Positions 29,604-34,926 of a stretch of DNA of 64,000 nt are shown here, piece after piece (position 1 is the stretch's first letter; each line of letters opens with the position of its first letter). Made by a program: the position numbers and the translations under genes. Origin of the DNA: a bacterium (GTDB lineage Bacteria > Latescibacterota > Latescibacteria > Latescibacterales > Latescibacteraceae). The notes below the pieces were generated by a model. It did not search any database. It was not told the DNA's origin and saw nothing but the letters and a program-made list of their open reading frames with translations. Location of the stretch: NCBI GenBank assembly GCA_021372535.1, contig JAJFUH010000234.1, positions 1-64,000 of the forward strand. The letters are read 5' to 3'.

Positions 29604-29650
29604 GCTGTCAAGGGTTGGCACGAAGTGCCGATTTGCATGCCCTTGACAGC
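29604..29650. repeat. 11-bp inverted repeat enclosing a 5-bp hairpin
   Basis: GCTGTCAAGGG (29604-29614) and CCCTTGACAGC (29640-29650) are perfect inverted copies. The centre holds GGCAC-GAA-GTGCC (29617-29629). No T-run follows on either strand, so an ordinary terminator is unlikely. It could be a protein-binding palindrome, an attachment-like site or an RNA structure. Confidence 0.75.
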
Positions 29651-29754
29651 AAGAAAACAACACATTTCGTCCTGGGGCTCGTGAAAAATATACTTTTTCA
29701 CAGCCCTCTTAAACCTGTTATATCTCTCAAGAGCGAGTAACATGAATTTTCACC

Positions 29755-29933: not shown

Positions 29934-32690
29934 TTAATAAGCCCTCACGAAGTTCACCGTCCACATCGAGACATGCGGCTCGGGCCCCACGGGGATTGCG
30001 CAGTTCACCCTGAGCGTGTTCACGTATTCATGGTGACGGGATTCGAGCGGGAAAAAATCGCCGTCGAAAACAAGTCCGACCCCGAGGTCGCGCCTGAGCG
30101 TGTCCGCCTTCACTGCCTCATCCTTGTGCCATACGCCTCCCACATCGCCGAATAATACGAGCCGGAACTCGTCGTCATACCCGAAAAAGTAATCGATGTT
30201 GGCGAGGAACATCTGGTTTCCGCCGCTCTGGACACCGAAACCGGACGGCTCAGGCAGTGTGCCGAACTCGAATCCGCGGAGCGTATTGAGCCCGCCGAGC
30301 CGGAACGACTTCTGATCGGGGAGCTCGTCCTCCGAATACCCTCCGGCTACCCTGATTTTCAGGAGGTTGCGGTCCGGATACCGGGTCGTGGAAACCGCGT
30401 TGCAGAAAAACCGGGTATACTCGGGGAGATACTGCCCGCCGCGGTCAATGCTCTTTTCCGCCGAAAGCATGAGTCTGCCGTTTGCGTACCTGTGACGGTA
30501 CGTGAACTCGGCCGAATAGCGCATGCCGGAGATACGGTCTTCATAGAGCGGGTTGAGGGGCGGATTGTCCTCTTTGGTCGAGCGGTTATTGAACACAGAC
30601 CAGTTGGTATACTTTTTCAACGAGCTGTAATCCTCGTCAAAATATTCCGCTTTGACTGTCAGAATACTCCCGACAGACTGGGAGATGTATCCGGTTCCGC
30701 CTTCGACCTGGTAGTAGTTCATCGTATCGAGTCCGAGAAGGAACGCATTCATGTATGCCTCATCGGGGGGAATAGCCCACTCCATGTTCGACTCGTATTC
30801 GAGCCGGTATGAGCCGCCAATCGCCAGATGATTCTTGTCGAAGAACCGTTTTTCCCCGTTCGCCGCATATGTCCACTCTTTATTTGCCCAGTGATACTGG
30901 GCGGCACCGGACACTTCCGAAAACGGCCCGTAGATGCTGTTAATCGTCAGCTTCAGCCCCGTTCCCACACCCGCCACACGGCTGAACGACCCCACCCCGT
31001 CCCAATCCCGTGAATACCGTTTAACCTCATAGATACGGACCACAAGATTACCGTCGCTGTCAATTGTATGGCTCGAACCCGAGATCAATTTACTTTTTTT
31101 GGGGAGCCGCTGAACAGCGTCGGAAATCTCGCTGCGTGTATAGTGCCGCCCTTTTTCAAGAGCGAGGTACTTTTCAACATCGGACGCGGATACCAGGTCC
31201 GTTCCGCGGATCGTGATCGACGAAAGTGTACCTTCCTCGAATTGCTTTTCCGGCGGCGTACTTTCCCTCACCGGTTTCAGGACGGTCGTGACCGGCCTCG
31301 TCTCACCCGCCAGGTCATACCCGATGAGTGTGAGGGCGCTGCCGAAAGCGGTGAATCCGACACCGGGCAGAAGCTTGAGCTCGTAACCGGGAGAACCGTT
31401 CGCTTCCATGGTATAAAGGATTCCGGCCTTTTCCGCTTCCACATCATCATCTTTTTTCCCCTCTTCGATCGCTTTGATCACGGCACCTCCGAGCATCTCG
31501 TCGCCTTTTGTCGTTTCCGCCTGGTCACTGTAGGGCAGCCAGAGTCGCGGCGGATCAAACCGTACGCCCGAGAGGTCACGTCCGAAAAAATTCCCGGTTA
31601 TCTCCGTAACCATGAGACCTTCAGTGGTTTCACACACTTCGATGCTGTCGAAGGGACGGTTTTCCGATTTGTCGAATGACAGCTTTGCAAACGTCTTGCC
31701 ATTGCCCGGTCTGACCCGCTCGACCCTGAGCGTAAGAGTATCTCCGTCCATGGCATACTTCCACCATGCTCCCCTGTTGAGGGGCATTACCCTGTCCTGA
31801 ATATAGGTGGTGTTTCCGGTTCTATCGGTATTCCCGCTGATATTGTCTCTGATCGTGATGCTGCCGAAATCGGCGGAGAGATCGATCCGTGGGCCACCGT
31901 CGTTCAGTATGCGCCGGTTCTGGTCTCCTCCCCTCATCGTGATATTGCCGTCAACCTTGAAATCCACGCCGCCGAAGGATTTGTTGATAAAAAATTCCGC
32001 GCCGCTGTTTCGGGGAAGCCGTATGTCGACACCGCCGAAATTGCACGATGCGCTCGAATAGTCGACAAGGTGGTCAATGGTGAGATCGATATTACCGAAC
32101 TCGCTGTTCACCTGAAAACTGCCGTCAAGCCCTCTCATCCTGAATTCGCCGAAGTTGTTATCGACCATGAGGGGACCGGTATGGTTGCTTGCCCGGGTTG
32201 ATGAAAAACTCGTTTCGGCCTTCATATTACCCCGCGTCGCCTCGATACGGACATCGGAAAAGGTGGCTTCCATATCCATGTCAACTACCCGGGGACCGGT
32301 CACCTCGATGACCACATGCCATTCCTTTTTAGTGAATATGCGCTTGAAAATGCCGGGGGAATCATTTTTTGGGTGTTCAAGCCGTATGGTAACCACATCG
32401 CCGGATTTCGTCATCTCGAGATCGAGATCATCGAGCATCTCACGGCATAACTCATCGTTATCGGCTTTTGCCCTCCGCTTGAAAACCACGTCGAACTGAC
32501 GGGCATCCGGAGAACTCTTGTACACAAAATCGGCAAACATGATTTCCCTGAACCTGACCTGACTCACCTCTTCCGCAGAGATAGTCTTGTTATCGGTTCT
32601 CGTCAGCTCGGAAAGGGCATATGCCGGAGCATTTGTGACAATGAAAATCACCGCGTAAAGCAGAGCGAAAAACAGTAACTTTTGCCTCAT
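29934..32690 (-). CDS. Omp85-family outer-membrane barrel with N-terminal DUF4097 head
   Basis: A 918-residue protein. GGAGGAGAAG directly precedes the ATG at 32690, and the leader ends near AYA. Residues about 30-270 are a DUF4097-type right-handed beta-solenoid ('ISAEEVSQVRFREIMFADFV', 'GFRMRGLDGSFQVNSEFGNI'-style repeats). About 275-445 is a second beta domain of unknown family. About 455-530 looks like a single POTRA domain (ITIRGTDLVSASDVEKYL). The remainder is an Omp85/D15 barrel with the conserved RLGGLNTLRGFEFGTLPEP and FLANIDYFFGYDDEFRLVLFGDVGGVW ending in NFVRAY. One POTRA is far fewer than BamA's five, so this is more likely a TamA- or secretion-like member than BamA. The head domain is unusual for this family. 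It is last in a three-gene run. Confidence 0.85.
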   Translation of the reverse strand: MRQKLLFFALLYAVIFIVTNAPAYALSELTRTDNKTISAEEVSQVRFREIMFADFVYKSSPDARQFDVVFKRRAKADNDELCREMLDDLDLEMTKSGDVVTIRLEHPKNDSPGIFKRIFTKKEWHVVIEVTGPRVVDMDMEATFSDVRIEATRGNMKAETSFSSTRASNHTGPLMVDNNFGEFRMRGLDGSFQVNSEFGNIDLTIDHLVDYSSASCNFGGVDIRLPRNSGAEFFINKSFGGVDFKVDGNITMRGGDQNRRILNDGGPRIDLSADFGSITIRDNISGNTDRTGNTTYIQDRVMPLNRGAWWKYAMDGDTLTLRVERVRPGNGKTFAKLSFDKSENRPFDSIEVCETTEGLMVTEITGNFFGRDLSGVRFDPPRLWLPYSDQAETTKGDEMLGGAVIKAIEEGKKDDDVEAEKAGILYTMEANGSPGYELKLLPGVGFTAFGSALTLIGYDLAGETRPVTTVLKPVRESTPPEKQFEEGTLSSITIRGTDLVSASDVEKYLALEKGRHYTRSEISDAVQRLPKKSKLISGSSHTIDSDGNLVVRIYEVKRYSRDWDGVGSFSRVAGVGTGLKLTINSIYGPFSEVSGAAQYHWANKEWTYAANGEKRFFDKNHLAIGGSYRLEYESNMEWAIPPDEAYMNAFLLGLDTMNYYQVEGGTGYISQSVGSILTVKAEYFDEDYSSLKKYTNWSVFNNRSTKEDNPPLNPLYEDRISGMRYSAEFTYRHRYANGRLMLSAEKSIDRGGQYLPEYTRFFCNAVSTTRYPDRNLLKIRVAGGYSEDELPDQKSFRLGGLNTLRGFEFGTLPEPSGFGVQSGGNQMFLANIDYFFGYDDEFRLVLFGDVGGVWHKDEAVKADTLRRDLGVGLVFDGDFFPLESRHHEYVNTLRVNCAIPVGPEPHVSMWTVNFVRAY

Positions 32691-32805
32691 CTTCTCCTCC
32701 ATTTTTACAGGTATGAACGTTTTATACATTCGATTCGGTCATAAACATATTATTCATTCCCGGTACAAGCCGACCGTGTTTCTGGCGGAACAGTATCAGG
32801 TCATA

Positions 32806-33684
32806 TCAATTACAGGAATGAACGGTTGGATTGAAATTATCCCAGACAGCAATATCCCCGAATTCGACATTGAGGTCGACGCGCGGCCCGCCCCCGTTCA
32901 GAATATGGTGTCCTGCGCAGTTCTCATCGTTACTGGCATCGCCGCCGACATTAAAACTCACTTTCCCGAACGATTTTGTTGCAAAGAAATCGGCGTTGGC
33001 GGTGGGAGGCACTCCGATGTCGACTTTTCCGAAATCTATACTTGCCCTCGAGTCTTCAGTCAGCCGTGAGAGTTCGATCATTATTTTACTGAAATCGCTG
33101 TTCACCGTAAATCCGCCATCGAGTTCTTTCGCGATGATCTTGCAGAAATCGGCATTTACCGTGAGCCGACCGACATGATTGCGGACTTCTGATTCCGAAA
33201 AATCAGTATTGATTGCCAGTTTACCGGAGGTTGAGTCGGTACGTATATGGGAAAAATCGGCATTCATATCCATATCAATGATTTGCGGACCGCTCATGGT
33301 GATGGTGATTTCCCATTTTTCAGGGTTGAACAGCCAGTTTTTTATTCCGCGTGATTCAATTTTCGGGTGTTTCAGACGAATGACAGCTTTTTCACCGACA
33401 GTCTCGGTTTCAAAAACAATATTCGAAAGAAGATCGCTGCATGTTTCCTCATCCCCGGCGGTTACTTTCAGTTTGATGTTCATATCGAACCGGTCGGCAT
33501 CGGGGGAACCATTATATGTCAGGGATACAAAGGCCAGATTGTCAAGGTTCAACTGTTTGATTCCCGTTGACGGTATGGTGATCGTGTCGCTCCGGGTCTT
33601 TTCAATCTTTGTCGACGAGCATCCGGCATATAACAGGAGGAATACTTCACCGCACAGGACTATACTCAATATCCGACGAACCAT
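32806..33684 (-). CDS. DUF4097 lipoprotein
   Basis: A 292-residue protein with a lipobox (LLYAGC, Cys22). The body is a DUF4097 beta-solenoid: 'AFVSLTYNGSPDADRFDMNIKLKV', 'VNADFCKIIAKELDGGFTVNSDFSKIMIEL', 'KSFGKVSFNVGGD'. It is a homologue of the head of the Omp85-type protein, sharing 'IDMDM-ADFS-IR', 'NSDFSK/NSEFGNI' and the 'GGPRVDL' end. An 'envelope solenoid partner' role (pairing with the barrel's head) is a reasonable inference. It starts at ATG 33684 and lies between the bactofilin-like gene and the barrel gene. Confidence 0.8.
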   Translation of the reverse strand: MVRRILSIVLCGEVFLLLYAGCSSTKIEKTRSDTITIPSTGIKQLNLDNLAFVSLTYNGSPDADRFDMNIKLKVTAGDEETCSDLLSNIVFETETVGEKAVIRLKHPKIESRGIKNWLFNPEKWEITITMSGPQIIDMDMNADFSHIRTDSTSGKLAINTDFSESEVRNHVGRLTVNADFCKIIAKELDGGFTVNSDFSKIMIELSRLTEDSRASIDFGKVDIGVPPTANADFFATKSFGKVSFNVGGDASNDENCAGHHILNGGGPRVDLNVEFGDIAVWDNFNPTVHSCN

Positions 33685-33713
33685 GGATAACCTCCGATTT
33701 TATATCATTTCTC

Positions 33714-34715
33714 TTATAATCCGGCTACAGACATATCGGACAGTGTGTCTGGTTTCGTACCGAACTGACTTACAATGACCACACCGAAGGAGAGTATTCC
33801 GAACACAATTTTAACGACAAAACCGATAAGCGGCATTAAACCCACAAGACCGAGCACCAGAACTCCGAGAAGGGCATTGTGGACTACCGGTCTCGACGGA
33901 GCGTTCGGCAGCATGCTTCCAACCAGAAAGGCAGTTCCGACCGATCCGAACAGATAGGCTATGATGATCGTTATAATGAGCACGGGAACGAGCGGAATAC
34001 CGATAAGCGTTATGATGAAAAAGAGCACCGTAAAAGGTATGAGGATGATTCCGATGAAACCGATAAACAGAGAAATCCAGAATCGGTTCCGGGCACACTG
34101 AGCCATGTTCTGAACCTGCCGGGGAAAAAAAGTTCCGGCAAGTGCGGCGATCATGCATTTGAAGAGCAGTTTGAAGAAGACGATTATTGTCACGATAAAT
34201 AAGGCAAAAACACCAACCGTTCCACCGAACGGGCCCCAGAAGAAAATCTTCGGCAGCTTCGAAAAGACATGCCGGGGACCATATCCGCAACCGGAAATCC
34301 CTGTCTGCCGCGGGAAAAAACTCATGATATTCGGAATATTCACCCCTTCGCCGACATTGGTAATCTCACCGCGCACGACGCCGCCGTCTTCGATCTGCAC
34401 TTGCCCGCCGACAGCGACACCCTTGCCGTTGACTTCGCCGGAGTTCCTGACCTTGACATTTCCGCCGACCGCAACCGCATCGCCGTTGACTTTACCGCCG
34501 TTCTCGACTATGACATTTCCGCCGCCGAGAGCGACCGCGCTTCCGGATACCGTGCCGAACACGCGGACATCCTTGCCGACACTGACCGCATCATCGACCG
34601 TCGTGCCCTCCTTGACGACAACGGATTCGCCCATTCTGAACTCGGCGTATCCTGTCCCGGGGCACATTGTCAACACAAACAGCACCGTGAAAAGCATCAG
34701 ACAAGCATATTTCAT
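33714..34715 (-). CDS. Bactofilin-like polymer domain fused to a membrane domain
   Basis: A 333-residue protein: signal peptide (to about residue 25), then about 85 residues of short beta-solenoid rungs rich in Gly/Val/Asn (VGKDVRVFGTVSGSAVALGG, VNGDAVAVGGNVKVRNSGEV), as in bactofilin-like polymer-forming proteins, then five or six hydrophobic helices from about 150 on. The combination of an exported solenoid with a C-terminal membrane unit is a known but poorly studied layout. It is first of the cluster with the DUF4097 lipoprotein and Omp85 barrel, so a common envelope structure is plausible. Confidence 0.8.
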   Translation of the reverse strand: MKYACLMLFTVLFVLTMCPGTGYAEFRMGESVVVKEGTTVDDAVSVGKDVRVFGTVSGSAVALGGGNVIVENGGKVNGDAVAVGGNVKVRNSGEVNGKGVAVGGQVQIEDGGVVRGEITNVGEGVNIPNIMSFFPRQTGISGCGYGPRHVFSKLPKIFFWGPFGGTVGVFALFIVTIIVFFKLLFKCMIAALAGTFFPRQVQNMAQCARNRFWISLFIGFIGIILIPFTVLFFIITLIGIPLVPVLIITIIIAYLFGSVGTAFLVGSMLPNAPSRPVVHNALLGVLVLGLVGLMPLIGFVVKIVFGILSFGVVIVSQFGTKPDTLSDMSVAGL

Positions 34716-34926
34716 GATTAATCCTCCCCATATAAGCCTTTCACCTGAAAACAGGCTGTTCAGTGCTGTCGTTTCCGCAGCCGTAATGCTGGATTTTTCA
34801 GGTTTCTGGTAGTTAGACGAAATGTATGGCGGGAAAATTTCATTTATTTTTGATTAAAGTCAATATCGTGTAAGTGCAGAAAAAAACAGGATAAACGAAA
34901 TAATCGAGGGCTGTTTTTGAGGAATA

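Follow-up and report, generated by a model that had tools for sequence, protein, structure and literature searches.

What, if anything, joins three neighbouring genes whose products combine beta-solenoids with a membrane domain, a lipoprotein-like signal and an outer-membrane Omp85 barrel? The question is raised by a locus in the first 64,000 nt of contig JAJFUH010000234.1 (GCA_021372535.1), hereafter the window, from a bacterium of the Latescibacteraceae with a 5.35 Mb genome in 236 contigs (designated G000). Three codirectional open reading frames (ORFs), in the order BACT, LIPO and OMP, are separated by intergenic gaps of 29 and 76 bp. Each is preceded by a Shine-Dalgarno-like sequence and has homologues elsewhere, and the three ORFs that a first-pass annotation had delimited at 29934-34715 can be regarded as real. 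We estimate the probability at about 45% that the locus represents one version of an envelope module of periplasmic beta-solenoids, linked to extracytoplasmic function (ECF) sigma factors, that acts as a brace or repair scaffold. The genes are:

33714..34715, minus strand: BACT, a secreted bactofilin-like solenoid with a C-terminal membrane domain, 333 aa
32806..33684, minus strand: LIPO, a free toastrack protein with a lipoprotein-like signal (Cys22, preceded by LYAG)
29934..32729, minus strand: OMP, with toastrack, middle domain, POTRA and Omp85 barrel, 931 aa, likely start 32690

The domains of these proteins are located as follows; the toastrack and solenoid hidden Markov models (HMMs), like the ECF model used below, were built from loci of the present study, and structures were predicted with AlphaFold2 (AF2), with confidence given as the predicted local distance difference test (pLDDT).

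34341..34643, minus strand: beta-solenoid of BACT, residues 25-125 (AF2 pLDDT about 90 for mature residues 1-97; solenoid HMM 2e-18)
33753..34247, minus strand: membrane region of BACT, about residues 157-321, helical with 4-6 transmembrane segments (hydropathy)
32836..33603, minus strand: toastrack of LIPO, HMM residues 28-283 (toastrack HMM)
31842..32609, minus strand: toastrack head of OMP, residues 41-296 (toastrack HMM; AF2 and Foldseek)
31320..31787, minus strand: middle domain of OMP, about residues 315-470, of no assigned family (alignment)
31023..31238, minus strand: predicted single POTRA of OMP, about residues 498-569 (PF07244 E=0.014; AF2 model)
29937..30995, minus strand: Omp85 barrel of OMP, residues 579-931, with a conserved LRGF motif (PF01103; barrel profile 5e-115)

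The barrel of OMP belongs to the Omp85 superfamily according to its match to PF01103 (E=4.5e-15, 56.4 bits versus a cut-off of 24). Ahead of it, the AF2 model contains exactly one beta-alpha-alpha-beta-beta POTRA (pLDDT 72-85), in agreement with the single unit originally counted. This unit superimposes on BamA POTRAs with a root-mean-square deviation of 1.7-2 A, but with Foldseek E values of 0.15-0.6, and its PF07244 match (16.5 bits) lies below the Pfam cut-off of 21.3. The head is a beta-solenoid (pLDDT about 85) with the right-handed beta-helix fold of toastracks, as indicated by Foldseek matches to 4qrk (E=2.4e-5) and 3pet (E=7.9e-5), both with a probability of 1.00. Its match to DUF4097 (PF13349) is below the cut-off (E=0.024, 14.5 bits versus 22.9); the head of the orthologue in G007, a genome of the same genus, exceeds it with 28.2 bits. 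The AF2 model was computed from a four-sequence alignment, and its barrel part is not confident. The preferred start codon of OMP is Met14 at 32690, with GGAGGAG upstream. Downstream of the operon, positions 29606-29660 of the window contain an inverted repeat (GCTGTCAAGGG...CCCTTGACAGC).

The same solenoid indeed occurs twice at the locus, as had been proposed: LIPO and the OMP head align over 276 residues with about 37% identity (E=2e-62). LIPO has no Pfam match, PF13349 included, and a phmmer search against the PDB returned chance matches only. Judging from its signal peptide, LIPO is probably a secreted lipoprotein. A cysteine follows the signal peptide where one is expected, but the Tyr at −3 is unusual and makes the lipobox imperfect, and lipidation is therefore probable rather than certain. 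LIPO was found only in the window's genome and is missing from the family genomes G006, G007 and G008. An origin as a recent copy of the adjacent OMP head found no support: LIPO groups in the tree with the heads of G008 and G006 (98/96), which makes an older duplication, or else a transfer, the likelier origin. In the f1 heads (window 31842-32609 and 32836-33603), F-G or F-S replaces, at many turns, the TxNG repeat that characterizes many toastracks.

BACT begins with a cleavable-type signal peptide of about 24 aa, followed by the solenoid and the helical membrane region. A signal peptide with a plausible cleavage site was recognized by eye in 4/4 orthologues, and hydropathy of the membrane region agrees in all four, the AF2 helices being of low confidence. 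The orthologues in G006, G007 and G008 are 34-39% identical to BACT, and full-length homologues are present in other phyla. Of the initial description as a bactofilin-like membrane protein, the solenoid and the membrane domain stood, but no bactofilin model was reached: PF04519 did not match BACT, and the best of the four orthologues gave E=0.024. In Foldseek comparisons, the solenoid matched the bactofilin 6ria with a probability of 0.89 but E=0.32, and 6rib was likewise among the weak matches. Bactofilins are cytoplasmic, a location at odds with the signal peptides of BACT and its orthologues.

Which part of the gene order is conserved? BACT and OMP are adjacent in 4/4 family genomes, representing three genera (the window's genome, G006, G007 and G008), and the pair is retained at 34-50% identity. 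By inspection, none of the window's flanking genes is present in G008, where OMP also lacks the middle domain. Because LIPO is missing from these relatives, the conserved unit is the pair; conservation of the triplet, which the first-pass annotation had suggested looking for, is ruled out. A contig scan with the OMP alignment retrieved three loci only, all from metagenome-assembled genomes of Candidatus Latescibacterota, the patterns probably having been too specific. In G006, the gene directly upstream of BACT (L035:1-999) matches the Omp85 barrel profile with E=3e-20 and may encode a second barrel next to the pair.

Other loci show related architectures. Many OMP relatives have no POTRA at all. 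In family f5 (L036-L039, from G011-G014), the toastrack is joined straight to the barrel without a POTRA, and a free toastrack gene precedes the toastrack-Omp85 gene in three of the four genomes; the clusters L036 and L038 have genes for an ATP-binding cassette (ABC) ATPase and a TolC-like protein upstream, and L036 also has MacB-type permeases. A wider search covered 386 genomes. In other phyla, that is, other than the window's phylum, BACT-type solenoids were found in frame with OMP-type Omp85 barrels in many families, and free toastracks lie beside several of these. Single chains with a toastrack, a CBM9 domain, a POTRA-like region and an Omp85 barrel are encoded at L107:5084-8623 (1179 aa) and L112:5555-9340 (1261 aa). 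At L040:1-1949, a toastrack is fused to a bactofilin-like solenoid and a CBM9 domain; this fusion ends at a contig edge and may continue into a DUF5916-type barrel.

The neighbourhoods of 55 barrel loci, each matching a barrel-only profile with E<1e-45, were set against those of 20 BamA-type controls from the same search, and domains were counted when fused or within 6 kb. Toastracks were found at 16 of the 55 loci (11 families), solenoids at 20 (14 families) and both at 11 (7 families), versus 0/20 controls in each case (uncorrected Fisher p values 0.004, 0.0008 and 0.03, respectively). A delimitation of these barrels as a single clade by a TNWS-like motif was abandoned, as the motif is also present in some BamA-type proteins and the deep nodes are weak.

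Several loci combine these domains with ECF sigma genes. At L106, L165, L176 and L178, an ECF sigma gene occurs together with toastracks and solenoid-Omp85 genes, and at L165 a BACT-like solenoid-membrane protein, a sigma factor and a toastrack are encoded in one gene run. When the BACT homologues of other phyla are taken as the starting point, ECF sigma genes lie near them at 9 of 20 loci, versus 1 of 20 controls (p=0.008); one of the nine, L209, was scored from coordinates, since the ORF picker had missed BACT. Several proteins encoded between the BACT homologue and the ECF sigma gene contain a zf-HC2 anti-sigma zinc finger. At L041, L077 and L080, in three family genomes, an operon of ECF sigma, anti-sigma and toastrack genes is followed by a gene for a CBM9 protein, with a DUF5916 barrel in L041. 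The window operon itself is preceded by one further feature:

34813..34842, minus strand: promoter-like site of ECF type, TGAAAT-N17-CGTCTAA, 98 nt ahead of the start codon of BACT

The general form TGAAAY-N17/18-CGTCTAA, which we take to be similar to ECF promoters such as the sigma-M sites of B. subtilis, precedes BACT in each of the three genomes that could be tested (the window's, G007 and G008), at a distance of 76 to 136 nt from the start; a shared pair of promoter-like form was obtained in 0/3000 shuffles. Exact copies number one in the window's genome and four each in G007 and G008, those at BACT being expected because the motif was derived from these promoters. When one mismatch was allowed, matches in the window's genome were in clear excess over the reversed control (24 versus 7). 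One such site (TGAAAT...TGTCTAA) precedes an ECF sigma/anti-sigma operon at G000:C164, about 15.4-17.6 kb (L250/L252), and the sigma factor encoded there is a candidate regulator of the window operon; a DUF6249 gene lies nearby. In G007, one-mismatch sites precede genes for an HlyD-type adaptor, a DUF6249 protein and a toastrack, the last of which runs into a LiaF-like C-terminus when joined to an overlapping contig (94% identity). Taken together, the adjacency of the pair in 4/4 genomes, the fusions with nearby toastracks elsewhere and the conserved ECF-type promoter-like site lend good support to a functional linkage.

How does this set of proteins compare with known systems? The 2014 census of Heinz and Lithgow distinguishes ten Omp85 subfamilies: BamA, TamA, BamA-like, patatin, WD40, metallo, lipoprotein, no N-terminus, FhaC and Hmw1B (PMC4104836). 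Toastrack and bactofilin-like heads are not among these ten and appear to be Omp85 head types undescribed in the searchable literature. No paper was found that links bactofilins with Omp85, nor one that joins the polymer-forming cytoskeletal (bactofilin) term with DUF4097 and membrane, in a literature sample that mostly excludes subscription journals and thus provides weak evidence of novelty. A PF01103 search found seven other Omp85 proteins in the window's genome: a BamA with Skp, a TamA-like protein with TamB, a BamA-like protein, two patatin-Omp85s, a WD40-Omp85 and a small barrel-only protein. Since BamA, a TamA-like protein and others are already present, OMP is regarded as accessory. 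Besides that of OMP, the window's contig encodes another Omp85 barrel about 38 kb beyond OMP (G000:C234:71121-72158; 835-aa frame, E=1.9e-23).

OMP itself is neither BamA (TIGR03303 47.9 bits versus a cut-off of 297; the genome's own BamA scores 489) nor TamA (NF047950 18.6 bits versus 625). Like the translocation and assembly module (TAM) of TamA and TamB, the locus pairs an outer-membrane Omp85 protein with a beta-rich inner-membrane partner, but BACT is small and not a TamB protein, and the TamA-like gene and TamB are encoded elsewhere (L087). PlpD, of type Vd, shares with OMP the signal peptide, a non-POTRA head, one POTRA (predicted in OMP) and the Omp85 barrel. However, the OMP head is a toastrack without a patatin match, and assignment to the patatin-Omp85 proteins was rejected on this score; OMP also has a conserved inner-membrane partner gene, and the two patatin-Omp85 proteins are encoded separately. 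The WD40-Omp85 subfamily likewise carries a beta-rich scaffold head, which is a beta-propeller instead of a beta-solenoid and which belongs here to a separate gene (L089). A solenoid-Omp85 relative, L109, exceeds the DUF5686 cut-off over its barrel, whereas the window OMP does not match DUF5686 at E<=1.

Toastracks are known partners in the phage shock protein (PSP) and Lia stress systems, and a survey of these proposes that their broad faces serve for protein docking (PMC11237479). The survey argues that toastracks are intracellular, and its main text does not mention Omp85 or bactofilins. LiaF, LiaG, LiaX and the PSP proteins share with the locus the toastrack, the envelope-stress context and the stress regulators near many relatives; they differ in that the window toastracks are exported, one of them on an outer-membrane barrel. 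No PspA, PspC or LiaI-LiaF-TM partner was found among the window neighbours scanned at the locus. With bactofilins, BACT has the short beta-solenoid in common, but it is exported, membrane-anchored and below the bactofilin cut-off.

The solenoids are assigned to the periplasm on the strength of the secretion signals and the outer-membrane barrel, with BACT as the predicted anchor in the inner membrane and OMP as that in the outer membrane. Several observations weigh against a common stress-induced module. Phylogenetic independence is lacking among the loci counted, and no correction was applied to the p values; a toastrack is absent from the neighbourhood of 39 of the 55 barrel loci, and a solenoid from that of 35. 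The barrel tree is weak and does not resolve at depth, and therefore some associations may be independent recruitments. The window operon has no adjoining sigma gene. One-mismatch matches in G007 hardly exceed the reversed control (20 versus 17), so that single regulon members other than the window operon are provisional. Contact between the solenoids is putative, and the barrel part of the AF2 model is of low confidence.

The main rival, which we consider somewhat unlikely, is that OMP is a specialised assembly factor resembling the beta-barrel assembly machinery (BAM) or TAM, in which the single POTRA and the toastrack would pass a subset of outer-membrane proteins or lipids on to the barrel, with BACT as the inner-membrane partner in the manner of TamB. 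The intact LRGF motif and the predicted POTRA fit this role, the seven further Omp85 proteins make accessory roles usual, and Heinz and Lithgow treat assembly as the conservative default (PMC4104836); however, many relatives have no POTRA, BACT is small and does not resemble TamB, and, as PlpD illustrates, translocation of the head is not a necessary task of an Omp85 scaffold (PMC11116518). An assembly role, one of two functions first suggested for the locus, is possible, whereas nothing supported the other, secretion; a stress response, which had not been proposed, is the best-supported context instead. Rather improbable is a mainly sensory role, in which toastrack and BACT detect damage and signal to an anti-sigma factor, the barrel being only an anchor. 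ECF sigma/anti-sigma genes adjoin at other loci and toastracks take part in Lia/PSP signalling (PMC11237479), but the window operon, lacking sigma and anti-sigma genes, resembles a sigma target.

The order of head, POTRA and barrel recalls PlpD, once assigned to the type-V-like (T5d) autotransporters (PMC4104836), and OMP could in principle display its toastrack on the cell surface. We judge this very improbable, as the head of PlpD remains periplasmic, resting against its POTRA (PMC11116518), and a conserved inner-membrane partner is at odds with surface display. There is equally little to recommend adjacency by chance or common ancestry without joint action: although LIPO is not conserved and the BACT-OMP pair as such has been seen in four genomes only, all from a single family, the pair has been kept while the flanks differ in G008, and fusions and repeated neighbourhood links recur in other phyla. 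A stress-induced brace or repair scaffold is therefore favoured.

In such a scaffold, BACT would anchor a bactofilin-like solenoid to the inner membrane and OMP would anchor a toastrack head to the outer membrane through an accessory Omp85 barrel, with LIPO as an additional toastrack copy in the window's lineage. Envelope stress would free an ECF sigma factor, which would transcribe the operon, and the solenoids might dock via their flat beta faces, bracing both membranes or organising repair near the barrel. The domains, secretion signals, pair conservation, fusions and promoter-like site can be read from the sequence. Sigma control, docking and bracing are what we infer from them; the physical structure across inner membrane, periplasm and outer membrane that was originally envisaged is conjectural, and the solenoids may act apart. 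A bolder and doubtful extension is a diderm counterpart of Lia/PSP, in which ECF-induced solenoids would form a trans-periplasmic brace, toastrack and bactofilin-like heads would be interchangeable, and the Omp85 barrels would be anchors, not insertases.

If the favoured explanation is true, toastrack-headed and bactofilin-solenoid-headed architectures would join the Omp85 superfamily. Toastrack domains would then occur outside the cytoplasm in diderms, and secreted bactofilin-like proteins would gain a stress context. The coupling of inner and outer membrane under stress in uncultured diderms would thereby become testable.

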